A DNA stretch of 64,000 nt from Sphingopyxis italica (lineage in GTDB: Bacteria; Pseudomonadota; Alphaproteobacteria; Sphingomonadales; Sphingomonadaceae), in assembly GCF_011926545.1 (NCBI RefSeq), contig NZ_JAATIT010000001.1:1506469-1570468 (forward strand), given 5' to 3'. This document shows, piece after piece, positions 43,524-62,469 of this stretch. The notes beneath the pieces are model-generated. The model ran no database searches and was not told where the DNA came from. It worked only from the letters and a program-made list of their open reading frames with translations. How positions within the stretch are numbered: the first letter of the stretch is position 1; the number at the start of each line of letters is the position of its first letter. The position numbers and the translations under genes were made by a program.

Positions 43524-43537
43524 TGACACCGGTTACC
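43524..43537 (+). promoter_or_regulatory. LacI-type operator upstream of TonB receptor 1
   Basis: TGACACCGGTTACC, identical to the sites before kduI and the pectate lyase gene. It lies about 30 bases after TTGACA, at or near the expected transcription start, where a bound repressor would block initiation. Confidence 0.8.
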
Positions 43538-43654
43538 GAAGCCGGACAATGAAACATAAAGATGACGGCCGGTCGGCTCCGAAGCCAGCCCTGGTCGCGA
43601 TCCGTGGGAAATGGGGCGTGGGCTGCAGGCCCGGGCCAAGGTGGGAGGATGGAC

Positions 43655-46270
43655 ATGGCTATTCAGGCAAGACGAGGCATTGGAATAGTGGCGAAGCTCG
43701 CGGGCGGCGCATCGCTCGCCGCGCTGGCGATAACGCCCGTGCATGCGCAGGATGCGGCGGCCGCGCAGACTGAAGAGGATGCGATCGTCGTCACCGGCAT
43801 CCGCGCTTCGCTCGCACAGGGGGCCGACATCAAGCGCGAGGCCGATCAGCTTCTCGACGTCATCACCGCCGAAGACGTGGGCAAGCTTCCCGACGCCAAC
43901 GTCGCCGAGGCGCTCCAGCGCGTCACCGGCGTCCAGATCACCCGCGTCTTCGGCGAAGGCCAGTCGGTGTCGGTGCGCGGACTGCAACAGGTTCGCGTCG
44001 AAGTCGACGGCCGCACGCTTCTCGGCTGGTCGGCGCGGCTGTCGCCGCCCGAAAACGACCAGCTCGGCCGCTCGTCGGGGCTCGACTCGGTGCCGTCGAG
44101 CCTGTTCGGCCGCCTCGAAGTCCGCAAATCGCCGCTCGCGAGTCAGGCCGAGGGCGGGCTCGGGGGTACGGTCAACCTGGTCACCCCGAAGCCGCTGAAC
44201 TTCAAGGAGCCGACGATTTCGCTGCGCGCGCAGGGCGTCTATTCGGAGAATAGCGACAAGTTCGAACCCGCGATCACCGGTTTCGCGACGACCAAGTTCG
44301 CCGACGGCCGCATCGGCGTCATGCTAGCGGGCGAATATCAGAAGCGCACCTCGACGACGCAGGCGTTCGAACGCAACAATTTCCTCGACCGCAATTATAC
44401 CGCCGGCGGGACGACGACGGTTCAGCAGACGCCGGTGCTGCTGCAATATGAACAATTCACCGTCGACCGCTCGCGGCTCGGCCTCAACGGCGCGATCCAG
44501 TTCGAAGTCACCCCCGAATTCACGGTCACCGCCGACGCGCTCTATTCGAAGCTCAAGACCGGGCGCCGACAGGATTTCTTCGCCTTCCGCCTGCCCACCG
44601 GCGCCAATCCGGTGGCCAACCCCGTCGTCGAGAACGGCATGGTCGTCGCGGGCGATGCGAACGGCACCGTCACCACCGCGGGGCAGATCCGCAACGAGCC
44701 GACCGAAAGCTTTCTCTATGGGCTCAACGGCAAATATGAGAGCGACGGGCTGACGATCGAGGCCGACGGCTATTACAGCAAGGGCACGATCGACCAGACG
44801 ATCCAGATCATCACCTTGCAAGGGACGGCGGCAGTTCCTGGCGCGTTCGATTTCCGCGACGTTACCATTCCCTCGCTGACGCTCGGCGGGACGTTCGACC
44901 CGGCCGATTACGCTTCCTACAACCCCGCGAACAATGGCGTGCGCAGCAACCGCCTGCTCGGCCTGCTCGAGGAATGGACCGGCAAGCTCGACGTCGCTTA
45001 CGAAGCCGGCGGCGGCGTCACGATCGCGGCGGGGGTGCGCTACACCGATCTCCACGCGCGCTCGAACGCTTTCCGCAGCCAGGTCACCCCGACCCGCGAA
45101 GAGATCGAGCCCTATCTGCGGGGGGTCGATGCGGGCGACTTCCTGTCCGACATTCCGGGCACTTTCCCGAACAGCTTCCTGAGCACCGCGCCCACCTACG
45201 ACTATGTTTTCAATCGTGGGCAGGCGGCGCAGCCCAATCCCGATCCCGACGGCCGCTCGACCCTGCTCCCCAACCTCCAGCGCGACTATGACTTCAGCGA
45301 AAAAACGCTCGCGGGCTATCTGATGGTGTCGGGCGAGGGCGAGATCGCGGGCATATCGTACAAGGCCAACGCCGGGGTGCGTATCGCGTCGACCCGCCTG
45401 TCGGTCGACAGCTATGTCAATGTCGGCGCGGTCAGCACGCTGCGCAACGACCGGAATCGCTACACCAATATACTGCCGAGCGCGAACATCGCCTTCAACG
45501 TCACCGACGATTTCCTGATCCGCGTGTCGGGGTCGCAGACGATGCAGCGCGCCTCGATCGCCGACCTCGCGCCGTCGACCTTCTTCAACGCGACCAACCT
45601 GTCGGTCACCGGCGGCAATGTGAATCTCGAACCGCCGATCGCGACGCAGGCCGATGTCAGCTTCGAATATTATACGGGGAAAAGCTCGCTGATCTCGGGC
45701 GCGGTCTTCTACAAGGACGTCAAGAATTTCATCGCGAGCTTCGTCACCACCGGAGTCGATCTCGATCTCGACGATCAAGGCCGCGAGCTGACCTTCTCGC
45801 GCCCCGAAAATCTGGCGAGCGCCAAGATCAAGGGATTCGAGATCGGCATCCAGCAGTTCATGGACTTCCTGCCCTCGCCGCTCGACGGCTTCGGCGTGAT
45901 CGCCAACTACACTTACTCGGATGCCGAGGATAATGCCGGCTTCCCGCTCGTCGCGGTGTCGAAGAACAGCTACAACCTCGTCGGCCTGTACGAGAAGGGG
46001 CCATTTTCGGCGCGCATCGCCTATAATTATCGCGACGAGGCGGTGTTCGAATTTTCGCAAGGACGCCCGAGCTTCGTCGGTTCGCGCTCGCAGCTCGACG
46101 CGCAGCTCGGGGTCGACATCACCCCGAATATCGCGCTGTCGCTTCAGGCGCAGAATCTGATGCCGAAGAAATCGGCGACGAGCGAGTATAGCAATTTCAA
46201 CCCGACCGCGCTCAACAGCTATGCCCTGTCCGAGCGGCGTTTCTCGGTCGGGGTGCGCGCGAAGTTTTAG
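43655..46270 (+). CDS. TonB-dependent receptor, probable pectic-oligosaccharide importer 1
   Basis: The product is 871 residues. It has a signal peptide (LAGGASLAALAITPVHAQ), a plug domain with IVVTGIRASLAQGADIKREA and LPDANVAEALQRVTGVQITR, and a long beta-barrel that ends in an aromatic residue (RFSVGVRAKF). It belongs to the large receptor group of Caulobacter and sphingomonads for carbohydrates. I chose the ATG at 43655, 6 bases after GGAGG. A LacI-type operator upstream and the beta-helix enzyme directly downstream suggest a plant polysaccharide fragment as substrate. Confidence 0.93.
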   Translation: MAIQARRGIGIVAKLAGGASLAALAITPVHAQDAAAAQTEEDAIVVTGIRASLAQGADIKREADQLLDVITAEDVGKLPDANVAEALQRVTGVQITRVFGEGQSVSVRGLQQVRVEVDGRTLLGWSARLSPPENDQLGRSSGLDSVPSSLFGRLEVRKSPLASQAEGGLGGTVNLVTPKPLNFKEPTISLRAQGVYSENSDKFEPAITGFATTKFADGRIGVMLAGEYQKRTSTTQAFERNNFLDRNYTAGGTTTVQQTPVLLQYEQFTVDRSRLGLNGAIQFEVTPEFTVTADALYSKLKTGRRQDFFAFRLPTGANPVANPVVENGMVVAGDANGTVTTAGQIRNEPTESFLYGLNGKYESDGLTIEADGYYSKGTIDQTIQIITLQGTAAVPGAFDFRDVTIPSLTLGGTFDPADYASYNPANNGVRSNRLLGLLEEWTGKLDVAYEAGGGVTIAAGVRYTDLHARSNAFRSQVTPTREEIEPYLRGVDAGDFLSDIPGTFPNSFLSTAPTYDYVFNRGQAAQPNPDPDGRSTLLPNLQRDYDFSEKTLAGYLMVSGEGEIAGISYKANAGVRIASTRLSVDSYVNVGAVSTLRNDRNRYTNILPSANIAFNVTDDFLIRVSGSQTMQRASIADLAPSTFFNATNLSVTGGNVNLEPPIATQADVSFEYYTGKSSLISGAVFYKDVKNFIASFVTTGVDLDLDDQGRELTFSRPENLASAKIKGFEIGIQQFMDFLPSPLDGFGVIANYTYSDAEDNAGFPLVAVSKNSYNLVGLYEKGPFSARIAYNYRDEAVFEFSQGRPSFVGSRSQLDAQLGVDITPNIALSLQAQNLMPKKSATSEYSNFNPTALNSYALSERRFSVGVRAKF

Positions 46271-46290
46271 AGGTCACAAGGAGTTATCGG

Positions 46291-47979
46291 GTGGTGGTTT
46301 CGGTTGGTCGGCGTGCGCGCCTCGTTTCGGTTTTGGCGCTGGGCGCGGCGCTGATTTTTCCCGCGCAGGCGCAGGCGCAGGCAGGGAAATTGCCCAAAAT
46401 CCTCTCGGACCCCGCGACGGCGGCGGCGAATCCGCTGCCCGACTTCAGCTATGCGGGTTATGGCTTCGGCCTCGCGCCTATCCCCGCCGATGCCGGGACG
46501 GTTATCGAGGTGACCGACCATGGCGCGATCCCCGACGACGGGCTCGACGATACCAAGGCGGTGCTCCGCGCGCTTGCCGCCGCCAATGCGGTGAAGGGCA
46601 AGGTGACGCTGCGTTTCCCGAAGGGGCGCACGCAGATCACCGAGGTGCTGCGGATCGCGCGTAGCGACATCGTCCTCGACGGTGCGGGCGACGGCCCCGG
46701 CGGCAGCGAGCTCTGGTTTCCGCGCCCGCTGAAGCTGATCGACCAGAGCCACGATTATGACGAGCTGCGCGAATATCTGGTGCGCGAAAAGAAGCAGCAG
46801 GTCGAGCCCGAGCATAATATCGATTATCTGTTCACCGAATATAGCTGGGCGGGCGGGATGATCCGCGTCGCGCCTGAGGGCAGCCGGCCGGTCTCCTATG
46901 ACGCGGCGAAGGACGTGCGCGACCCGGTGCTCGCGACCGGTGTGTCGGGCAAGCAATTCACCCGCACGCTGACGGTCGACGACGCGGCGAAGCTCAAGGT
47001 CGGCGATGTCGTCCAGGTTCAATGGTTTTCGGTCGACGGACCAAAGAGCCAGATATTGAAATCGCTCTATGGCGACACCGACCTGCCGATCGGCTCGCAC
47101 CACTGGACCTCGCCCAACCGGCCGGTCGTCGTGCAGGCGACGCGTGTTACTGCCGTGCGCGGGCGAACGGTGACGCTCGGCGATCCCTTGCTTCACGACG
47201 TTCGCGCGGACCAGCCCGCGGTCGTCGCCGATTGGAAGCATCTCTCAAACGTCGGCATCCAGAATATGCGGCTGCAGTTCCCCGAGGCGCCGGCGTTCGG
47301 CCATCATCTGGAGCAGGGTTATAACGGCATCTATATGACCGGCGTGTTCGACGGCTGGATAAGCGGGCTGACGATCGACCGGTCGGACAGCGGCATCCTC
47401 ACCGACAATGCGGCGAGCCTGACGATCGCCGACATCATAACGACGGGCGACCGCCGCGCGCATTATTCGGTGCATGTCGGCGCGGTGCACAATGTGCTCG
47501 TCAAAAATTTGAAGGTTGCGAATCCGGTGGTCCACCCGGTCAGCATCAACACGCGCTCGACGCGCTCGGTGTTCCTGCGCTCGGTCGTCGACCGCGATGC
47601 GATCATCGATCAGCACAGCGGGTCGAACCATCAGAATCTGTTCGACGCGATCGAGATGCACATCGATCCCGAACAGGGCAAGGACGGCTGGCAGTATCAG
47701 CTCTGGGTCGGCGGCGGCGCGCCTTATTGGAAGCCGGGGCATGGCCTCTACAATACGTTATGGAATGCGAAGCTGGTGATGCCCGAAAACATTCCCGCCG
47801 ACGCGACGGTGGCGATCACGAGCGGGCTCGAAGGGCCGGGCGAGCGGATCGTCGGGCTGCACGCAAACCGGAAGATCCGGGTCAGCTACAATCCTGCGCC
47901 TTATATCGAAGGCACAGGGCAGGCGGTCGACGCCGCGCCGTCGCTATACGAATATCAGCTCGCGCGCCGCCGGCGCTGA
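46291..47979 (+). CDS. Secreted right-handed beta-helix protein, candidate polysaccharide-degrading enzyme (GTG start)
   Basis: The product is 562 residues with a Sec signal (VLALGAALIFPAQAQAQA). It has a pectate-lyase-superfamily-3 opening (VTDHGAIPDDGLDDTKAVLR, then ALAAANAVKGKVTLRFPKG) and many short beta-helix turns such as LSNVGIQNMRLQFPE and SDSGILTDNAASLTIADI. This layout is common to polygalacturonases, lyases and rhamnogalacturonan enzymes, and I cannot assign one. The GTG at 46291 lies 7 bases after AAGGAG. It is 20 bases after the receptor and probably in the same operon. Confidence 0.8.
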   Translation: MVVSVGRRARLVSVLALGAALIFPAQAQAQAGKLPKILSDPATAAANPLPDFSYAGYGFGLAPIPADAGTVIEVTDHGAIPDDGLDDTKAVLRALAAANAVKGKVTLRFPKGRTQITEVLRIARSDIVLDGAGDGPGGSELWFPRPLKLIDQSHDYDELREYLVREKKQQVEPEHNIDYLFTEYSWAGGMIRVAPEGSRPVSYDAAKDVRDPVLATGVSGKQFTRTLTVDDAAKLKVGDVVQVQWFSVDGPKSQILKSLYGDTDLPIGSHHWTSPNRPVVVQATRVTAVRGRTVTLGDPLLHDVRADQPAVVADWKHLSNVGIQNMRLQFPEAPAFGHHLEQGYNGIYMTGVFDGWISGLTIDRSDSGILTDNAASLTIADIITTGDRRAHYSVHVGAVHNVLVKNLKVANPVVHPVSINTRSTRSVFLRSVVDRDAIIDQHSGSNHQNLFDAIEMHIDPEQGKDGWQYQLWVGGGAPYWKPGHGLYNTLWNAKLVMPENIPADATVAITSGLEGPGERIVGLHANRKIRVSYNPAPYIEGTGQAVDAAPSLYEYQLARRRR

Positions 47980-47982
47980 CGC

Positions 47983-49038
47983 CTAACGCCCCGGCGGCGC
48001 AGCGACCGACTGGCGCTCGACGAAGGTCGAGGCGAGCACATTGCTCTCGTCGCCTGCCGCCTTGGCGCCCGGCCCGAGGAAATCGGGAACGAGCGTCTGG
48101 GCAGCGCGGATGCCCATTTCGCGGATCGGCCAGCGCACCGTGCTGAGCGCGGGCCAGATATGCGTCGCGGTCGGGCTGTCGTCGAAGCCGATGATCGACA
48201 GTTCGCCGGGCACCTTGATGCCCTTGCTGTGCGCGACGCTCATCAGCCCAGCCGCCATCTCGTCGTTCGAACAGAAGACCGCGGTCGGCGGCGCGCTGAG
48301 CGACAGAAGCGCCTCGCCCGCCTCGATCCCCGCGGTGTAGCGATAATTGCCTGGCGCATAGAGTTCGGCGGCAAGCTCAAGCCCCGCCTGGGCGAGCGCC
48401 TCGCGGAACCCCTCTTCGCGCTCGGCCGCCGAGCGGAAGCCGACGGGGCCGCGCACGAAGCCGATACGGCGGTGGCCGAATGCGAGGAGCCCGCGCACCG
48501 CCTCGGCGACGACCTCGCGGTCGTTCGACGAGATGCAATGCTTGGCATCGTCGATCCGCGCCGACCCGATGCGGACATAGCGCACGCCGAGATCCTCGCA
48601 GAGCGCGGCGAGATCGTCATTTTCCGAGATCGGCGGCAGCAGCATCGCGCCGATCGGCCGCTGCTTTTCGAGGAAGGTGCGGACGTCCTCAAGCATCTTG
48701 TCCGACCCGCGGTCGACGGGGCGGACGAGCAGCGCGAGGTCGCTGTCCTTGATCGCGTCGAGCACCCCGCGCTGGAAGTTCAGCACCGTCTGCGCGTTCG
48801 GATTGTCGTGGAGCAGCGCGATCAGGAAGTTACGGCGAAAGGCAAGCGCGCGCGCCTGCGGATTGGGAACGAAGCCGAGCTGTTCGATCGCCTTTTCGAC
48901 CGCCGCGCGCGTCTTGTCGGTCAGGAATTCGGACCGGTTGATCACCCGGCTCACGGTCTTTTTCGACACTCCCGCAAGGGCCGCGACATCGTTGATCGTC
49001 GGCTGCTTGCCCCCCGGCCCCTTATTCTGTGCCGCCAT
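47983..49038 (-). CDS. LacI-family transcriptional regulator of the pectin/uronate genes
   Basis: The product is 351 residues. The N-terminal helix-turn-helix and hinge are clear (TINDVAALAGVSKKTVSRVI, then LGFVPNPQARALAFRRNFLI), and the rest is a periplasmic-binding-protein-like sensor domain (AVFCSNDEMAAGLMSVAHSK). It should bind palindromic sites with a central CG, which fits the five TGACACCGGT sites of this locus. It is divergent from kduI with one such site between. The effector is probably 2-keto-3-deoxygluconate or another pathway intermediate, by analogy only. Confidence 0.92.
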   Translation of the reverse strand: MAAQNKGPGGKQPTINDVAALAGVSKKTVSRVINRSEFLTDKTRAAVEKAIEQLGFVPNPQARALAFRRNFLIALLHDNPNAQTVLNFQRGVLDAIKDSDLALLVRPVDRGSDKMLEDVRTFLEKQRPIGAMLLPPISENDDLAALCEDLGVRYVRIGSARIDDAKHCISSNDREVVAEAVRGLLAFGHRRIGFVRGPVGFRSAAEREEGFREALAQAGLELAAELYAPGNYRYTAGIEAGEALLSLSAPPTAVFCSNDEMAAGLMSVAHSKGIKVPGELSIIGFDDSPTATHIWPALSTVRWPIREMGIRAAQTLVPDFLGPGAKAAGDESNVLASTFVERQSVAAPPGR

Positions 49039-49142: not shown

Positions 49143-49171
49143 TTGACACCGGTTACCATCAAAACTAGCAA
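49143..49171 (+). promoter_or_regulatory. kduI promoter with embedded LacI-type operator
   Basis: TTGACA (49143-49148), 17 bases, TAGCAA (49166-49171) is a good sigma-70-like promoter. The operator TGACACCGGTTACC (49144-49157) covers the -35 box, so a bound repressor would exclude RNA polymerase. The 170-base gap to lacI holds nothing else recognisable. Confidence 0.8.
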
Positions 49172-49209: not shown

Positions 49210-50052
49210 ATGTTTTCCAAGACCTATTACGCCACCCACCCCGTGATGATGGAAGAGGTGTCGAACGCCGAGCTGCGCGATCGCTACCTCATCCAGAATC
49301 TGTTCCGCGAGGGGGAATGCGTCCTCAACTACACCCACGCCGACCGCTTCGTGATCGGCGGCGTCGCCGTCGGTTCGGCGCCGGTCAAGCTGCCGGCGCA
49401 AAGCGAGCCGCCTTCGGCTGCGGGCCACCCCTTCCTCGAACGCCGCGAGCTCGCCATCGTCAACGTCTCGTTGGTCGAAGGCACGGTCACCGTCGACGGC
49501 GAGAGCTTCACGCTGGGCAACAAGGATTGCCTCTATGTGACGATGGGCGCGAAAGACGTCACCTTCGCAGGGCAGGGCGCGCGTTTCTATCTGGCGTCGT
49601 GCCCGGCGCACAAGGCGTTCACGACGCGCAAGCTCGGCATCGCCGACGCCAATGCGCTCGATCGTGGCAGCCTCGCCGAATCGAACGAGCGCACGATCTT
49701 CCAACTCGTGATTCCGGGCGTGTGCGACAGCGCGCAGCTCGTCATGGGCCTGACCGTGCTCAAGGAAGGCAGCGTGTGGAACACGATGCCGCCGCACATT
49801 CACGAGCGGCGCAGCGAGATTTATTTCTATTTCGAGCTCGACAATGTCGATACCGACCGCGTGATGCACTTCATGGGCGAGGGCGAGGCGACGCGCCACA
49901 TCGTCATGCAGAATGAGGAAGCGGTGATCAGTCCGCCCTGGTCGATCCATATGGGCGCGGGCACCAAATCCTATGCCTTCATCTGGGCGATGGCGGGCGA
50001 GAATCAGGATTATACCGACATGAACGTCCTCGACATCTGTCAGCTGTCCTGA
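49210..50052 (+). CDS. kduI: 5-dehydro-4-deoxy-D-glucuronate isomerase KduI
   Basis: The product is 280 residues, the standard KduI length. The N-terminus ([20 protein letters not shown]) and the cupin-like block [20 protein letters not shown] with its metal-binding His residues, then [18 protein letters not shown] at the end, are characteristic. It converts 5-keto-4-deoxyuronate (DKI) to 2,5-diketo-3-deoxygluconate (DKII) after lyase action on pectin. It shares one base with kduD. Confidence 0.97.
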
Positions 50053-50807
50053 TGCCCGGCGTTTTCGACCTCACGGGAAAAGTCGCACTCGTCACCGGCG
50101 CCAACACCGGCATCGGGCAGGGGATCGCGCTCGCGCTCGCCGAAGCCGGCGCCGACATCGCCGCCGCGGGCCGCTCGCCCGCCGACGAGACCGTCGGCAA
50201 GATACGCGGGCTCGGCCGGAAAGGCGAAAATTTCGCCGCCGACCTGTCGAGCGTCGGCGCGGTGCAGCCGCTCGTCGACGCGGTGCTCGCTGAGTTCGGC
50301 CGCATCGACATCCTCGTCAACAATGCCGGCATCATCCGCCGCGCCGACGCGGTCGACTTCACCGAGGCCGACTGGGACGCGGTGATGGACACCAATTTGA
50401 AGACGCTCTTTTTTCTCTGCCAGAGCGTCGGCCGTCATATGATCGCGCGCGGTTCGGGAAAGATCATCAACATCGCCTCGATGCTGACCTTTCAGGGCGG
50501 CATTCGCGTGCCGAGCTATACCGCGTCGAAGTCGGGCGTCGGCGGGCTGACCAAGCTGCTCGCGAACGAATGGGCGGCGAAGGGCGTGCAGGTCAATGCG
50601 ATCGCGCCCGGCTATATCGCGACGAACAACACCGCCGCGCTACAGGGCGACGAGACGCGCAACCGCCAGATCATGGAGCGCATCCCCGCGGGGCGCTGGG
50701 GCGATCCCAGCGATATCGGCGGCGCCGCGGTGTTCCTCGCGTCGTCGGCGTCGGACTATGTTCAGGGCCATATCCTCGCCGTCGACGGCGGCTGGCTCGC
50801 GCGATAA
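50052..50807 (+). CDS. kduD: 2-deoxy-D-gluconate 3-dehydrogenase KduD
   Basis: The product is 251 residues and is a short-chain dehydrogenase: the cofactor motif TGANTGIGQGIA near residue 17, NNAG at the core, and the catalytic YTASK. It reduces the KduI product to 2-keto-3-deoxygluconate. Close coupling to kduI supports kduD over other dehydrogenases of the same family. Confidence 0.95.
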   Translation: MPGVFDLTGKVALVTGANTGIGQGIALALAEAGADIAAAGRSPADETVGKIRGLGRKGENFAADLSSVGAVQPLVDAVLAEFGRIDILVNNAGIIRRADAVDFTEADWDAVMDTNLKTLFFLCQSVGRHMIARGSGKIINIASMLTFQGGIRVPSYTASKSGVGGLTKLLANEWAAKGVQVNAIAPGYIATNNTAALQGDETRNRQIMERIPAGRWGDPSDIGGAAVFLASSASDYVQGHILAVDGGWLAR

Positions 50808-50828: not shown

Positions 50829-50915
50829 CCGTTCGCCCTGAGCTTGTCGAAGGGCTGTCCTCATCTTGAATGGCCGGAAGGAAGAACGGTGCTTCGACAA
50901 GCTCAGCACGAACGG
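50829..50915. repeat. Pair of REP-like hairpins in opposite orientation
   Basis: The first hairpin (50835-50855) has stem GCCCT/AGGGC and loop GAGCTTGTCGA. The second (50889-50909) has stem GTGCT/AGCAC and the reverse complement of the same loop. Flanking CCGTTCG is also shared in inverse. The stems differ but stay paired. The pair lies between kduD and the kdgK start and may act on the stability of the shared transcript. Confidence 0.8.
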
Positions 50916-50935
50916 ATTTGGGGAAGGACGTCATC

Positions 50936-51946
50936 TTGAACGGTCGCCTTGTCTTTTTCGGCGAACTTCTGATCCGCCTGAACGCGCCGGGCAATGAACT
51001 GCTCATGCAGTCGCCGTCGCTGTCGCTTCACGTCGGCGGCGCCGAGGCCAATGTCGCGATCGGCCTCGCGCACCTCGGTCACGACTGCGCGATGGTGAGC
51101 AAAATTCCCTCGAACGCACTGGGCCGCGGCGCGGTGGCGGCGGTGCGCGGCGCGGGCGTCGACTGCGCCGCCGTCACGCTTCATCCGGGGCGCATGGGGC
51201 TTTATTTCCTCAGCGTCGGCGCGGGGCTGCGCGCTTCGGAAATCGTCTACGACCGCGCCGGATCGAGCTTCGCGGCGACCGGGGCGGAGGATTATGACTT
51301 CGACGGATTGCTCGAGGGCGCCGGCCTGCTCCACCTCTCGGGCATCACTCCCGCACTCGGGCCGCGCTCGGCCGAGGCGGCGCTCGGCGCAGCGCGCGCG
51401 GCGAAGCGGCTCGGGGTGCCCGTCAGCTTCGACGGCAATTATCGCGCGATGCTGTGGGAGGCGTGGGACAGCGACCCGCGCACGATCCTCTCCGAACTGA
51501 TCGGCAGCGCCGACATCCTCTTCGGCAACCACCGCGACCTGTCGCTCGTGCTCGGGCGCGAATTCAGCGGCGAGGGCGCGGACCGGCGCCGCGAAGCCGC
51601 CGAAGCGGGTTTTGCCGCCTTCCCCGACCTCAAGCTCATCGCCTCGACCGCGCGCCATACGGCCACCGCCGACCATCACCGGATCGCGGCGCGCGTCGAC
51701 CTTCGCAACTCCTGCCACCAGACCGCCGAGATCGACGTCACCGGCATCGTCGACCGCATCGGGGCGGGCGACGCCTTTGCCGCGGGCGTGCTGCACGCGC
51801 ATCTCGGTGGCGGCGATGCACGCGCGATGGCCGAATCGGGCCTCGCGCTCACCTGCCTCAAACATTCGCTGCCCGGCGATGCGAGCCGCTTCGGACAGGG
51901 TGACATCGACGTCTTCCACGGCGGCGGGCTCGATGTCCGGCGCTGA
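50936..51946 (+). CDS. kdgK: 2-keto-3-deoxygluconate kinase KdgK (TTG start)
   Basis: The product is 336 residues, a PfkB-family sugar kinase with LVFFGELLIRLNAPGNELLM at the N-terminus and the family motif DRIGAGDAFAAG near the C-terminus containing the catalytic Asp. It phosphorylates 2-keto-3-deoxygluconate from KduD or from altronate dehydratase. I chose the TTG at 50936, about 7 bases after AAGGA, because the open frame before it runs through the REP-like hairpins and has no kinase similarity. It overlaps the esterase gene by 14 bases. Confidence 0.93.
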   Translation: MNGRLVFFGELLIRLNAPGNELLMQSPSLSLHVGGAEANVAIGLAHLGHDCAMVSKIPSNALGRGAVAAVRGAGVDCAAVTLHPGRMGLYFLSVGAGLRASEIVYDRAGSSFAATGAEDYDFDGLLEGAGLLHLSGITPALGPRSAEAALGAARAAKRLGVPVSFDGNYRAMLWEAWDSDPRTILSELIGSADILFGNHRDLSLVLGREFSGEGADRRREAAEAGFAAFPDLKLIASTARHTATADHHRIAARVDLRNSCHQTAEIDVTGIVDRIGAGDAFAAGVLHAHLGGGDARAMAESGLALTCLKHSLPGDASRFGQGDIDVFHGGGLDVRR

Positions 51947-54438: not shown

Positions 54439-54839
54439 TGCCCAGCCACCTTGTTCGGATAGGCGATAATCAGCACCAGCGGCTCGCCGCCCGTCTGGCG
54501 AATGCCGACCTTGGCGCCCTTGTAGAGCCACGCCGCGGTCCCGGCCGTCAGCGCCTTCTCCTCGCCGTCCGAATGGACGATGCCGGTGCCCGACAGGACA
54601 TAATAAATCTCGTCATGGCCGATTGCGTGGACGCCGATCGCGGCGCCGACGTGCAGCGCGCGCTTGCGGAATTCGAAGCTGCGCGGTGCGGGGACGGCGT
54701 CGCTGATCCGGTACGCGGTCGACATGCCGATTCGCCCATGCGGCGGCGCTTCCTCGCGCACCGTCGCCGCTTCGTCGATCACGACCATCGCGGGGGCGGC
54801 GCCGGCGCTCGCGAGCAACGCGGCGAGCAGTGCGCTCAT
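54435..54839 (-). CDS. Secreted cupin protein (possible KdgF-type)
   Basis: The product is 134 residues: a short signal sequence (LLAALLASAGAAPA) followed by a single cupin domain. The metal-site block is GVHAIGHDEIYYVLSGTGIV, and a second part is KGAKVGIRQTGGEPLVLII. KdgF, a cupin that speeds up opening of unsaturated uronates, is often linked to pectin lyases, but known KdgF proteins are cytoplasmic. The signal sequence here would place it in the periplasm. It overlaps both neighbours by 4-5 bases. Confidence 0.75.
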   Translation of the reverse strand: MSALLAALLASAGAAPAMVVIDEAATVREEAPPHGRIGMSTAYRISDAVPAPRSFEFRKRALHVGAAIGVHAIGHDEIYYVLSGTGIVHSDGEEKALTAGTAAWLYKGAKVGIRQTGGEPLVLIIAYPNKVAGQ

Positions 54840-56215
54840 TGCGCCTCTCCGCGCGACGCGCGGTCGCGCGCCGACAGATGCTCTTGCGGCAGCGGCGCGG
54901 TCTGGCCGGGGTAACGGCCCGATTTCGGTTCCATCGTCGCGAGGTTCCAATCCTTTTCGACGAAGGGCGCGCGCACCGGCGCTGCGACCTTCGGATAGGC
55001 GCTGACCTCCTTTTCGTCGTCGATGATGTCGCCGCGCCCCTCGGCGACGAAGAAGAGGATGCGAATCTCCTCGGTATCGCGCGCCCACGGCCGCGCCCCC
55101 GCGGTCGCCAGCAGCGCGGTTTCGACATCGCGCACCGGCAGGATAGTATAACCGCCGACCGGCGCGAGCGGCGCCTTGGCGCGGATCAGTTTCGCTTGCG
55201 TCTCGCCATAGCGGCCGAACTCGGGAAGCGCATTGCCGTGGCGATCGACCGCCAGATTGTCGCGGCCATAATATTCGAGGTCGCCGTCGCCGCCGAGCAT
55301 CAGAAAGGGCAGGCCCTCGTCGGTGTCGTTGCCGCCGCGCATGACATTGCCGATCGCGGTGATCTGTCCGGCGACATAATCATGCCCGACCCATTCGAGG
55401 TTCATCAGATTATAATGCACCGCGCGGTGTCCGGGGTTATAGATCAGATTGTTGATCATCAGCGCCTGTCCGCCCCCCTTGATCAGCGGATTGCGCTCGA
55501 CATTATGCGCCCAGACGTTGCGGTAAAAGACGATGCCCGTCGCATTGTCATGGATCAGCGACCCCTTGCTATGCTCGCCCTTGGGATGGCTCGCGTCGGC
55601 GAGGCCCTCGGCGGCGAGATTGTTCGAGAAGCTGATGTTGTGGCTCGTCCCCTGACGCCATTCCGCAACGCTCTTGCCGGTGAAGCGCGGGCCCGACGCC
55701 GACATATTCTCGTCGATCCCCCACAGGAAGGTGCAATGATCGACGATGACATTGTGCGCCGCGACGGTCGAAAAAGTGTCGGCTTCCCACCCGCTGCGCT
55801 TCGGTTGGTCGTCGACGCCGGTATAGACGCGCAGGTGGCGCATCACGACGTCGTGCGTCTTCACGTCGATGCCGGTGCGGATGAGGGTGATCCCCGGTCC
55901 CGGCGCGGTTTGCCCGGCGATCGTCAGATAGGGATGTTTGATCTCGATCGTCTTGCGGCCCATGTCGATCACGCCGCCGACCTCGAACACGATGATGCGC
56001 GGCCCCGGCGTTTCGATCGCCGCCTTCAGCGACCCGGGGCCATCGGGCGCGAGCGTCGTCACGCGCAGGATCTTGCCGCCGCGCCCGCCCGGCGTCGCGG
56101 CGGCCGGACCGACCGCGCCGGGGAAGGCCGATGGGGCGGCTTCCGCCGCCAATGCCGGCGCGGCCGGCATCGCAAGCGCCAGAAAAAGCGCAGTTATCCA
56201 AGGTTTCCGGCGCAT
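54836..56215 (-). CDS. Secreted pectate lyase (PL1-like)
   Basis: The product is 459 residues with a signal peptide (ITALFLALAMPAAPALA). The beta-helix includes GGVIDMGRKTIEIKHPYLTI, then AGQTAPGPGITLIRTGIDV and IVDHCTFLWGIDENMSAS, which match the calcium-binding and catalytic regions of pectate lyases. It should cut polygalacturonan by beta-elimination to give the unsaturated ends used by KduI. A LacI-type operator lies about 60 bases upstream. Confidence 0.9.
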   Translation of the reverse strand: MRRKPWITALFLALAMPAAPALAAEAAPSAFPGAVGPAAATPGGRGGKILRVTTLAPDGPGSLKAAIETPGPRIIVFEVGGVIDMGRKTIEIKHPYLTIAGQTAPGPGITLIRTGIDVKTHDVVMRHLRVYTGVDDQPKRSGWEADTFSTVAAHNVIVDHCTFLWGIDENMSASGPRFTGKSVAEWRQGTSHNISFSNNLAAEGLADASHPKGEHSKGSLIHDNATGIVFYRNVWAHNVERNPLIKGGGQALMINNLIYNPGHRAVHYNLMNLEWVGHDYVAGQITAIGNVMRGGNDTDEGLPFLMLGGDGDLEYYGRDNLAVDRHGNALPEFGRYGETQAKLIRAKAPLAPVGGYTILPVRDVETALLATAGARPWARDTEEIRILFFVAEGRGDIIDDEKEVSAYPKVAAPVRAPFVEKDWNLATMEPKSGRYPGQTAPLPQEHLSARDRASRGEAQ

Positions 56216-56271: not shown

Positions 56272-56285
56272 TGACACCGGTTACC
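56272..56285 (-). promoter_or_regulatory. LacI-type operator upstream of the pectate lyase operon
   Basis: TGACACCGGTTACC, identical to the kduI site. It and the next site lie 130 bases apart in the 258-base gap between divergent pectate lyase and TonB receptor genes. The rest of the gap holds no recognisable gene. Confidence 0.8.
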
Positions 56286-56415: not shown

Positions 56416-56429
56416 AGTAACCGGTGTCA
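56416..56429 (+). promoter_or_regulatory. LacI-type operator upstream of TonB receptor 2
   Basis: AGTAACCGGTGTCA is the reverse complement of TGACACCGGTTACT, one base different from the other sites. It lies 45 bases before the receptor start. Confidence 0.78.
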
Positions 56430-59345: not shown

Positions 59346-60959
59346 GTGACCGATCGCCGCGACATGCTCAAACTGGCCGGAGCGGGATTGCTGGGGACGG
59401 GCCTCTCGGGCTTCGGCGCCCCGGCGGCTCTTGCGAGCGGCGCACCCGCTTCGCCCGCCCCCGCGCCGGCGTGGGCGAAGGGCTTCGACGGCCAGCGCAA
59501 GGCCGACCTTGGCGACGGGCGCTTCCTCAATCCGATCATGGCGGGCGACCATCCAGATCCGTCGATCCTGAAGGATGGCGCCGACTATTATATGACCTTC
59601 TCGACCTTCGATAGCTATCCGGGTCTGGTCATCTGGCATTCGCGCGATCTGGTGAACTGGCGCCCGATCGGCCCCGCGCTCACCCGCAATATCGGCTCGG
59701 TCTGGGCGCCCGAACTCTGCAAGCACGACGGGCGCTATTATCTCTACGTTCCGACCAAGGGCCCGAACACAAGTTGGGTGATCTGGGCCGACCGGATCGA
59801 GGGACCGTGGAGCGATCCCGTCGATTTGAACCTCCCCAACCATATCGACCCCGGCCATGCGGTCGGCGAGGACGGGTCGCGCTGGCTGTTCCTGTCGGGC
59901 GGCGACCGCGTGCGCCTGTCGGACGATGGCCTGTCGCGCATCGGCGAGCCCGAACATGTTTATGACCCGTGGCGCTATCCGTCCGACTGGGTGGTCGAAG
60001 GCTTCGCGCCCGAGGGGCCGAAGATCGCGCGGCACGGCGACTATTATTACATGATCACCGCGGTCGGCGGCACCGCGGGGCCGCCGACCGGCCATATGGT
60101 GATCGCCGCGCGCTCGAAGTCGATCCACGGCCCGTGGGAAAATTGCCCCGCCAACCCGCTCGTTCGCACCAGATCGGCCGCTGAAAAATGGTGGTCGCGC
60201 GGCCATGCGACGCTCGTCGAGGGGCCGGCGGGCGACTGGTGGAGCGTTTATCATGGCTATGAGAATGGCTATTGGACCTTGGGCCGGCAGGCGCTGCTCG
60301 ACCCCGTCGAATGGACCGATGACGGCTGGTTCCGGATGAAAGGCGGCGATCTGTCGCAACCGATCGCCAAGCCCAAGGGCGGCACGGTCGCGGGGCCGCA
60401 CGGCATGGCGCTGTCGGACGATTTTTCGAGCCTAGCGCTCGGCGCCAAATGGAATTTCTTCAAGCCCGCGCCCGATGAGCGCCGCCGCGCGCGCGTCGAG
60501 GATGGCGCGCTGGTGCTGGCGGCTCGCGGCAAGGCGCCGGTCGATTCATCGCCCTTGCTGCTGATCGCGGGCGATCAGGCGTATCGCTTCGAATGCGATA
60601 TCGAGATCGCGCCCGGCGGCACCGCGGGGCTGATCCTCTTCTATGACGAGAAGCTCTATTGCGGGCTCGGCTTCGACGGCGCCCGCTTCGTCACCCACCA
60701 ATATGGCATCGAGCGAGCGCGCCCCGCCAATCCGCACGGCCGCCCGATGCGCATGCGCGTCACCAACGACCGCCATATCGTCACCTATGACACGAGCGGC
60801 GATGGCGGGAAAACATGGGTCCGCTTCGACCGCGGCATGGAGGTTTCGGGATACCATCATAATGTGCGCGGCGGCTTCCTGATGCTGCGCCCCGGGCTCT
60901 ATTCGGCGGGATCTGGCGAAGCGCGCTTTCGGAACTTCACCTTCCGCGCGCTCGATTAA
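59346..60959 (+). CDS. Secreted glycoside hydrolase family 43 enzyme (GTG start)
   Basis: The product is 537 residues. A twin-arginine-like signal (DRRDMLKLAGAGLLGTGLSG) is followed by the GH43 five-bladed propeller with catalytic Asp in GDHPDPSILKDGADYYMTFS and further blades to about residue 350. A C-terminal beta-sandwich (GH43_C2-like) ends the protein. Arabinosidase or xylosidase activity on pectin side chains is likely. I chose the GTG at 59346, which follows GAGGAGA. Its stop codon overlaps that of uxaA on the other strand. Confidence 0.88.
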   Translation: MTDRRDMLKLAGAGLLGTGLSGFGAPAALASGAPASPAPAPAWAKGFDGQRKADLGDGRFLNPIMAGDHPDPSILKDGADYYMTFSTFDSYPGLVIWHSRDLVNWRPIGPALTRNIGSVWAPELCKHDGRYYLYVPTKGPNTSWVIWADRIEGPWSDPVDLNLPNHIDPGHAVGEDGSRWLFLSGGDRVRLSDDGLSRIGEPEHVYDPWRYPSDWVVEGFAPEGPKIARHGDYYYMITAVGGTAGPPTGHMVIAARSKSIHGPWENCPANPLVRTRSAAEKWWSRGHATLVEGPAGDWWSVYHGYENGYWTLGRQALLDPVEWTDDGWFRMKGGDLSQPIAKPKGGTVAGPHGMALSDDFSSLALGAKWNFFKPAPDERRRARVEDGALVLAARGKAPVDSSPLLLIAGDQAYRFECDIEIAPGGTAGLILFYDEKLYCGLGFDGARFVTHQYGIERARPANPHGRPMRMRVTNDRHIVTYDTSGDGGKTWVRFDRGMEVSGYHHNVRGGFLMLRPGLYSAGSGEARFRNFTFRALD

Positions 60960-62437
60960 AGCGTCACGCCCGACTTCCAGATCGCGATATCGCGCTCTTC
61001 GTTGACCTCGGCTTTCGTCGGCTTTCCCGAGGCGGTGGCCGTGACGAGTTCGAGCAGCGCGTCGGCCGCCGCATCGAAACCGGCGTCGAGCACCGCCCCC
61101 GCGTCGAAATCGATCCACCCCGTCTTGCGCGCCGCGAGCGCGCTGTTCGACGCGATTTTGAGCGTCGGCGCCGGAAAGCCGAGCGGCGTGCCGCGCCCGG
61201 TGGTGAACAGGATGATCGTCGCACCCGCCGCGGTCAGTGCGGTCGAGGATACCGCGTCGTTGCCGGGCGCTTCGAGCAGCGTCAGCCCGGGAAGCGCCGC
61301 CTCTTCGCCATAGCGTCGGACATCGACGAGCGGCACCTGGCCGCCCTTCTGCACCGCGCCCAATGACTTTTCCTCGAGCGTGGTGATCCCGCCCGCGATG
61401 TTGCCGGGCGAGGGGTTCTCGCTCACCGGCTCGCCGTGGCGGATGAAATATTGCTTGAAATCGCGCACGAGCGCGGCGGTCTCGTCGAACACCGCGCGCG
61501 ACACCGCGCGGTCCATCAACATTTGCTCGGCGCCGAAGATTTCCGGAATTTCGGTCAGCACCACCTTGCCGCCCGCCGCCGCGACGGCATCGGCCATCCG
61601 CCCGACGAGCGGGTTGGCGGTGAGGCCCGAGAGGCCGTCGGAGCCGCCGCATTTGACGCCCAAAACCAGCTTTTCCAGCGGCACGTCGGTGCGCGGCGCG
61701 TCGGCGCAGGCCGCGACCAGTTCGTCGACCAGCGCGAGGCAGGCGGCTTCGTCATCCTCGACCGCCTGCGCCGACAGGGTGCGGATATGGGCGCGGCGAT
61801 CGGCTGGAATATGGTCCACCAGCGCGCCGAGCTGATTGCTCTCGCACCCCAGGCCGACGATCAACACGCCGCCCGCATTGGGGTGCTGCGCGAGCGCCGC
61901 GAGCAGCGCGCGCGTATGGCCGAGGTCGTCGCCGAGCTGCGAACAGCCGAAGGGGTGCTTGAACGCATGCACCCCGTTGATGCGCTCCGCATGGCGCTCG
62001 CCCGCGATCCGCGCGACGCGCGCGGCGAGGTTGCCGACGCAGCCGACGGTCGGCAGGATCCAGATTTCGTTGCGGGTGCCGACGCGGCCGTCGGAGCGGA
62101 CATAGCCCGCAAAGGTCCGGGAAGGCATGGCGGTGGGCGCTGCACGGGCGGCGGGCGGCGCGTAACGATAGTCGCCGTCGCTGCTCAGCACGGTCGCCAG
62201 ATTGTGGCTGTGCACATGCTCGCCGGGCGCGATGTCGGCGGTCGCGACGCCGATCGGAAAGCCATATTTGATCACAGCGGCGCCGCGCGCGATCGGCGCG
62301 AGCGCGATCTTGTGCCCGCGCCCCACGGCGACGGCGGCGCGCAGATCGCTGCCCGCGAACAGCGTCGTGCCCGGCGCGATGTCGGCGATCGTGGTCGTGA
62401 CATTGTCCGCCTCATGGACGCGCAGCGCCCCGCGCAT
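60956..62437 (-). CDS. uxaA: Altronate dehydratase UxaA
   Basis: The product is 493 residues. The N-terminal SAF domain (IAPGEHVHSHNLATVLSSDG) and the large domain with LGVKCGGSDGLSGLTANPLV are typical of altronate dehydratases. It makes 2-keto-3-deoxygluconate from altronate in the galacturonate branch. I chose the ATG at 62437; a GTG at 62461 would overlap the operator. It is divergent from the hydratase-like gene, with one LacI-type operator between. Confidence 0.93.
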   Translation of the reverse strand: MRGALRVHEADNVTTTIADIAPGTTLFAGSDLRAAVAVGRGHKIALAPIARGAAVIKYGFPIGVATADIAPGEHVHSHNLATVLSSDGDYRYAPPAARAAPTAMPSRTFAGYVRSDGRVGTRNEIWILPTVGCVGNLAARVARIAGERHAERINGVHAFKHPFGCSQLGDDLGHTRALLAALAQHPNAGGVLIVGLGCESNQLGALVDHIPADRRAHIRTLSAQAVEDDEAACLALVDELVAACADAPRTDVPLEKLVLGVKCGGSDGLSGLTANPLVGRMADAVAAAGGKVVLTEIPEIFGAEQMLMDRAVSRAVFDETAALVRDFKQYFIRHGEPVSENPSPGNIAGGITTLEEKSLGAVQKGGQVPLVDVRRYGEEAALPGLTLLEAPGNDAVSSTALTAAGATIILFTTGRGTPLGFPAPTLKIASNSALAARKTGWIDFDAGAVLDAGFDAAADALLELVTATASGKPTKAEVNEERDIAIWKSGVTL

Positions 62438-62455
62438 CGGATATTCGCTTGCCTT

Positions 62456-62469
62456 TGACACCGGTGTCT
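62456..62469. promoter_or_regulatory. LacI-type operator between uxaA and the hydratase-like gene
   Basis: TGACACCGGTGTCT is the most palindromic of the five sites (TGACACCGGTGTCA would be perfect). It lies in a 58-base gap between divergent genes and could control both. TTGACA (62455-62460), a possible -35 box for the rightward gene, overlaps it. Confidence 0.8.

Follow-up and report, generated by a model that had tools for sequence, protein, structure and literature searches.

A beta-helix protein related to PL29 and its TonB receptor in Sphingopyxis italica: a possible lyase and uptake pair for a glucuronic-acid polymer

The question raised by this locus is what is cut by a secreted 562-residue protein encoded directly behind a TonB-dependent receptor, and whether this protein belongs to a known family. 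The locus lies in a stretch of 64,000 nucleotides of Sphingopyxis italica (contig NZ_JAATIT010000001.1, positions 1,506,469 to 1,570,468), which is called the window. An earlier note, made from the letters, described the pair as a receptor and an unassigned beta-helix enzyme under a pectin operator, offered the enzyme as a candidate new family, and proposed profile searches and structure prediction as checks. In the reading preferred here, which is given about an even chance, the two genes form a cutting and uptake unit and the protein acts as a lyase on a polymer of glucuronic acid, beta-1,4-glucuronan being the most likely one. Lyase chemistry is judged likely because the characterised relatives are lyases and the neighbouring genes process unsaturated uronates. 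Glucuronan is preferred because PL38 and D-mannonate dehydratase (ManD) are, of the genes tested, the constant companions of the enzyme within the genus. The enzyme is probably not a new kind of pectin enzyme.

Relation of the 562-residue protein to PL29

No model was over cut-off in the Pfam and NCBIfam scans of the enzyme, and in this respect the statement that it has no clear match by eye holds. The nearest Pfam models were both under cut-off (rhamnogalacturonase/epimerase beta-helix PF12708, 24.1 of 27 bits; DUF4955, 19.4 of 25). The PL6-type family PF14592 gave no match in the Pfam scan, and the pectinase families GH28, PL1, PL3 and PL9 gave none at E up to 1. Comparison of profiles shows PL29, however. 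The enzyme clade was aligned to PL29 by hhalign at 100% (E 8.8e-45, 452 columns); the controls were PL6 (2.4%), PelZ (0.6%) and another beta-helix family (47% over 42 columns). This match and the low controls imply a relation beyond the common beta-helix fold and rule out the view that the protein has no known relative.

NF058554, the model of BT3328 (PL29), gave 66.7 bits on the enzyme, far under its equivalog cut-off of 1100, and matched 24 of the 24 members of the alignment of enzyme homologues. Among 395 Bacteroidota genomes a single PL29 passed the cut-off (1246.7 bits), and three other proteins scored in between, at 786, 407 and 255 bits. None of the 12 genomes holding the new clade had a protein over cut-off; two further PL29-like proteins were found there (231 and 208 bits). 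The enzyme is 20-27% identical to these six PL29-like proteins over 443-454 columns; the aligned region opens with DFSYAGY, close to the N-terminus, and closes with SLYEAQL..R at the other end. A long branch (SH-aLRT, the approximate likelihood-ratio support, 100) separates the 82 members of the new clade from the six PL29-like proteins in a tree of 88 proteins. Seven residues (H338, H339, H391, H415, H442, H484 and D452) are invariant in 91 clade members and in all six PL29-like proteins, and are candidate active-site residues; many others, such as Q441, N446 and N449, are invariant in the clade alone.

The 562-residue protein is thus, by sequence, a homologue of PL29 from end to end, in a separate clade beside it. 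The proposal of a wholly new family is rejected because of this end-to-end homology: the enzyme is not of a new kind and belongs to a separate, widespread clade. dbCAN may already place this clade under PL29. It is found in Pseudomonadota and Bacteroidota, and at least 493 related stretches were found in one scan. The nearest named relative among the matches listed is from Sphingopyxis (91-92% identical). A scan of 199 genomes matched 17, two of which (G013, G180) have short N-terminal matches only, so that 15 hold a homologue. No characterised clade member was found in the literature by title or opening abstract among the best-ranked papers, most subscription journals being outside coverage.

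The homology to PL29 would by itself suggest an enzyme of the BT3328 type, with glycosaminoglycans such as hyaluronan or chondroitin, or a similar bacterial capsule, as the target of the lyase. In the available text of the two reports (PMC6994673, PMC9067506), PL29 acts on chondroitin and hyaluronan, and one PL38 acts on hyaluronan in that of PMC13027841. Of 18 Bacteroidota loci, 16 have GH88 of the unsaturated-chondroitin-disaccharide type close to the enzyme, and PL29-like genes are on the same contig stretch in two genomes. The low identity to the PL29-like proteins, the clade-private invariant residues and the companion in Sphingopyxis, which is GH105 and not GH88, make this reading quite unlikely.

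The N-terminus of the enzyme is a hydrophobic stretch ending in AQAQA, Sec-signal-like by eye; similar stretches lead the homologues. The protein thus looks, from its sequence, like a secreted one (periplasmic or released). The AlphaFold2 model (mean pLDDT, the per-residue confidence score, 83.1; pTM, the predicted template modelling score, 0.86) is a right-handed beta-helix in fold comparison, as the earlier note had it, with Z up to 24.9. The best matches are 7chu (Z 24.9, root-mean-square deviation 2.6, 280 residues), 7w1d (24.6, 3.3, 348 residues) and 8ja4 (24.2, 2.9, 285 residues). Among the matches are a phage protein of Geobacillus, a K1 capsule lyase of Klebsiella, alginate epimerase/lyases and polygalacturonases. 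The top Z values of the model are nearly tied and give no choice of function; absence of a family from the matches does not exclude that family. In profile searches of the PDB, a full-length relative was found for neither the new clade nor the PL29-like clade, and the sequence similarity of the enzyme to solved structures is limited to a short N-terminal block. The predicted structure of a true PL29 (pLDDT 58.6, pTM 0.60) was too poor for the two clades to be superposed. Kinship with phage depolymerases was considered and set aside: the top Foldseek rows are phage tailspikes, but the TMq of the top six is 0.37-0.43, sequence and context give no support, and the likeness is taken as a shared fold.

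The near tie of epimerases (8ja4, 2pyg), polygalacturonases and phage depolymerases among the fold matches would fit a hydrolase or C5-epimerase, in place of a lyase, on the same scaffold. This is very unlikely given the full-length homology to PL29 and the unsaturated-uronate enzymes often encoded nearby (RpiB or KduI in 39, KduD-like proteins in 52 of 80 named loci).

Companions of the enzyme across the genus

Eighty congeneric genomes were compared by Fisher tests. The enzyme was matched in 37; two with short matches (G199, E 7.6e-6; G237, E 1.7e-12) were set aside, which leaves 35 with and 45 without the enzyme. Two genomes (G244, G259) were counted as carriers although their copies are in pieces. 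All 35 genomes that have the enzyme also have PL38, against 1 of the 45 that do not (p 6e-22); for ManD the counts are 35/35 and 5/45 (p 2e-17), and for PelZ 24/35 and 28/45 (p 0.64). Across the genus, the enzyme tracks PL38 and ManD, not PelZ. The PelZ gene served as a proxy for the species tree (51 of the 52 PelZ genomes; G209 omitted). On this tree the enzyme switches between present and absent 12 times, and at least seven of these switches are on well-supported branches. Of seven independent pairs, PL38 goes with the enzyme in all seven (p 0.016), ManD in about five and PL6 in about two.

The enzyme gene follows the receptor gene after 20 bp, and this pairing of a TonB receptor with a secreted beta-helix enzyme, which the earlier note pointed out, is confirmed and conserved. 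In 32 of 35 loci the receptor gene stands immediately before that of the enzyme, with an identity of 85-93% (77-79% for two loci of Azospirillaceae), at least six of the 32 being one place reached through two collections. The three unpaired loci (L029, L074, L075) are all outside Sphingopyxis. The outer neighbours of the pair vary: in some loci they are KduI-KduD-KdgK, accompanied or not by esterases and PelZ, and in others GH105, receptor, PL38, PL38. In 11 of the 32 loci PL38 is next to the pair. The label PL38 is based on PF05426 and on similarity (E 1.2e-35) to 8bdq, which we take to be the Bacteroides ovatus PL38 enzyme; the best PDB match of the gene is 3nfv (E 5e-55), named only 'alginate lyase'. 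Neighbour counts are lower bounds because automatic gene calling missed the KdgK of the window and the enzyme of L039; unlabelled neighbouring open reading frames were scanned only in part.

An alginate lyase working alongside PL6, PL17 or PL38 alginate lyases is doubtful, yet less so than the other rival functions. PL6 is enriched with the enzyme genus-wide, PL6 or PL17 is near the enzyme in 6 of the 80 named loci, and a PL6-type domain (PF14592, 373 bits) is fused to a clade member in one locus (L175). In the available text of PMC13274419, a Verruconatronum operon that is raised by alginate (proteomes with a single replicate for each treatment) encodes two PL29-annotated proteins, and in that of PMC12175321, alginate loci of Woeseiaceae have PL6, PL7 and PL17 or PL29; judging by taxonomy and labels only, these PL29-annotated proteins may belong to the present clade. 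On the other side, 10 of the 35 enzyme genomes are without PL6, PL6 follows the enzyme poorly in the independent pairs, and the PL6 gene of the S. italica genome is 1.4 Mb from its single copy of the enzyme. UxuA and ManD, moreover, act on D-mannonate in the glucuronate branch, outside alginate catabolism.

Several results weigh against a glucuronan lyase. The genomes are not independent, and the proxy tree is of one gene, possibly shaped by transfer. Not every protein of the ManD family is an efficient mannonate dehydratase. PL6, mostly an alginate family, is in 25/35 genomes with and 14/45 without the enzyme (p 6e-4). PL38 is within about 10 kb of the enzyme in only 11 of the 80 named loci, and two of four enzyme genomes in a class-wide sample are without it. 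The neighbours in the window are largely pectin and galacturonate genes under the same operator. PL38 presence alone does not fix the substrate: the family has two alginate and two glucuronan lyases, plus one hyaluronan/chondroitin lyase (available text of PMC13027841). The substrate may also differ between subclades.

The locus, its operator and other lineages

The features of the window that bear on the pair are given in Table 1.

Table 1. Features around the receptor-enzyme pair; positions are those of the window.
Feature	Position	Strand	Basis or remark
LacI-type operator TGACACCGGTTACC	43524-43537		Upstream of the pair; conserved near the receptor in the scanned Sphingopyxis loci
TonB-dependent receptor, partner of the enzyme	43655-46270	+	TIGR01782, 582 bits (cut-off 310)
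Secreted 562-residue right-handed beta-helix protein, distant PL29 relative	46291-47979	+	Proposed glucuronic-acid-polymer lyase
LacI-family regulator, proposed reader of the operator	47983-49038	-	PF00356 and PF13377 over cut-off
Operator copy	49144-49157		Between LacI and KduI
KduI, 5-dehydro-4-deoxy-D-glucuronate isomerase	49210-50052	+	NF002091, 377.5 bits (cut-off 250)
KduD, 2-dehydro-3-deoxy-D-gluconate 5-dehydrogenase	50052-50807	+	TIGR01832, 406.2 bits (cut-off 338.85)
PfkB sugar kinase, named KdgK by position	50870-51946	+	PF00294; no KDG-kinase (2-keto-3-deoxygluconate kinase) model over cut-off in the NCBIfam scan
PelZ-like pectate lyase	54836-56215	-	NCBIfam PelZ, 346.5 bits (cut-off 840); no Pfam family at E up to 1
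Two operator copies	56272-56285, 56416-56429		In the gap that separates the PelZ-like lyase from the second TonB receptor
Altronate/galactarate dehydratase	60956-62461	-	
Operator copy	62456-62469		At the start of the altronate/galactarate dehydratase gene

The receptor open reading frame spans 43562-46270 (+) and has in-frame ATGs at 43649 and 43655; the latter is the start given in the earlier note. The enzyme gene begins with GTG, just 3' of AAGGAG. The LacI gene converges on the enzyme gene, and KduI, KduD and the PfkB kinase lie beyond it, pointing away. Farther right in the window are a carboxylesterase, a second esterase, the PelZ-like pectate lyase (itself a divergent lyase), the second TonB receptor, GH43 and the altronate/galactarate dehydratase. 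Genes for an MFS transporter and for a glucuronate isomerase (572 bits, cut-off 387) lie beyond the right edge, along with one for a fructuronate-reductase-like protein (332 bits, against a cut-off of 603). Just left of the window, the same genome has a PL38 cluster: PL38 (PF05426), a third TonB receptor, GH105 (PF07470), ManD (726.8 bits, cut-off 550) and a GntR regulator. A large flagellar gene cluster (about 1500-31700 of the window; FlhA-type FHIPEP, FlgI, FlgK, FliD, FlhB, FliP, FliG, FliF, flagellins) sits between the PL38 cluster and the pair.

The sequence TGACACCGGTNWCM, with at most one mismatch, is matched six times in the window, where 0.08 matches were expected. Of the five places, one is upstream of the receptor, one is in the LacI-KduI gap, two are in the gap that parts PelZ from the second receptor, and the last is at the altronate dehydratase gene. 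In the PL38 cluster it is matched four times (0.04 expected); the two places are directly before the PL38-partner receptor and in the GH105-ManD gap. The sequence is also near this receptor in all six PL38 clusters of relatives that were examined (L208-L213). With at most two mismatches, it is within 400 bp of the enzyme gene or of the start of its operon in 46 of 92 loci; among random segments the figure is 63 of 1840. Gammaproteobacteria and Erythrobacter-type loci are included in this count; Bacteroidota have 0 of 18. The 46 are a lower bound because automatic operon starts missed several Sphingopyxis cases.

The operator announced by the earlier note is therefore real, but it is not confined to pectin genes: since it also precedes the receptor of the PL38 cluster and its GH105 and ManD genes, it marks hexuronate genes and is a hexuronate operator. 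It is most likely read by the adjoining LacI protein. The assignment to pectin is weakened further by the presence of this operator before the enzyme in Erythrobacter-type and gammaproteobacterial loci. A pectin enzyme (a lyase or hydrolase of homogalacturonan or rhamnogalacturonan whose products would feed the adjoining KduI-KduD-KdgK and altronate dehydratase) is accordingly unlikely. The operator in common with PelZ, the second receptor and the altronate dehydratase would fit it, as would PelZ, GH43 and two esterases within 13 kb and polygalacturonases among the fold matches (7b8b, Z 22.6; 1bhe, Z 22.5). It is opposed by the independence of PelZ from the enzyme across the genus, by the absence of GH28 and pectate-lyase matches in Pfam, by the near-zero PelZ profile match, and by the rarity of the PelZ cluster, found in 6 of the 80 named loci, all Sphingopyxis-type.

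Besides the Kdu-type enzymes counted above, the 80 named loci have LacI (34), FAA-hydrolase-like proteins (32), GH105 (12), PL6 (5) and PL17 (3). Many marine Erythrobacter-type loci have KduI or RpiB, KduD, a TRAP transporter, LacI and an FAA-hydrolase-like protein; several Alteromonas-type loci have BNR_4 proteins and sulfatases. In the 18 Bacteroidota loci, UxuA is near the enzyme in 14 and PL38 in 4. Two adjoining 20-kb stretches of Polaribacter have UxuA, KduI, KduD, two copies of the enzyme, GH88, PL38 and a PL29-like gene. In the class-wide sample, the enzyme is in 4 of 385 genomes and PL38 in 2, both among those 4; in one alphaproteobacterium of another family the enzyme and PL38 matches are 3 bp apart on the same strand. 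This sample is sparse and serves as a consistency check only.

Some further observations concern these loci. An RpiB/LacAB-type isomerase is in the position of KduI (e.g. between LacI and KduD) in 16 of the 80 named loci and in one Sphingopyxis place reached through two collections (L047, L066), which suggests a non-homologous replacement of the isomerase step. The FAA-hydrolase-like protein is conserved (about 270 residues; PF01557 under cut-off) and stands beside KduD, KduI or RpiB and LacI, e.g. at L095:5953-6765. DUF4861 proteins are near the enzyme in 12 of the 80 named loci (e.g. L129), and one is beside PL38, GH105 and ManD in L211 (PF16153, 170.7 bits); the DUF4861 protein is possibly a further pathway member. 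L175 (G599) and L176 (G638) encode a fusion of 986 residues, with an N-terminal PL6-type domain and a C-terminal clade member; in the L175 fusion D takes the place of H442 and Y that of H484.

In the pathway proposed for the glucuronan lyase, PL38 and the enzyme would cleave the glucuronic-acid polymer by beta-elimination and the TonB receptor would take up the oligosaccharides. Unsaturated uronate would be released by GH105 (GH88 in Bacteroidota) or by the lyases themselves, and converted to KDPG (2-keto-3-deoxy-6-phosphogluconate) via KduI, KduD and KdgK. Saturated glucuronate would pass through UxaC, fructuronate reductase and ManD. The LacI-family regulator would read TGACACCGGTNWCM before both half-pathways, probably sensing a shared intermediate; this would explain the same operator on pectin genes.

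A bolder version is possible and rather improbable: the clade would be an unrecognised glucuronan lyase family on the beta-helix scaffold, an exo- or oligo-acting partner of PL38, and could supply the gene of a CUL-II-like activity. Degradation of glucuronan would in that case be a LacI-controlled module that is widespread in Sphingomonadales and has its counterpart in Bacteroidota. The genome paper of Brevundimonas sp. SH203 reports CUL-I and CUL-II as purified, CUL-II without a gene, and cites an exo-type cellouronate lyase by title (PMC5477187).

Comparison with known systems

If the preferred reading is true, PL38 gains an enzyme partner on glucuronan, and automatic 'chondroitinase' and 'pectin' labels are to be corrected. 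A large clade shares the scaffold of relatives characterised as cutting glycosaminoglycans, with a different substrate predicted from the genomes, one absent from the PL29 reports as far as their available text covers (PMC6994673, PMC9067506).

PL29 (BT3328 of Bacteroides thetaiotaomicron, NF058554) and the enzyme have about 450 homologous columns and the six histidines and the aspartate in common, and both are encoded with importers and unsaturated-uronyl hydrolases. The enzyme differs by its low identity and model score, its separate clade, its private invariant residues, its other gene partners in Pseudomonadota and the lack of an N-terminal spacer domain. BT3328 and BT3329 have an N-terminal region of about 300 residues in common (available text of PMC6994673); the core of the enzyme begins at about residue 51, and three PL29-like proteins (L143, L173, L174) are also without this region. 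PL38 is the proposed partner on the same polymer, by co-occurrence; it is of a different Pfam family (PF05426) and no sequence relation is claimed. Polygalacturonases (GH28), PL6, C5-epimerases and phage depolymerases are right-handed beta-helices like the enzyme, but in sequence its likeness to solved structures is limited to the short N-terminal block, and its profile match to PL6 is 2.4%.

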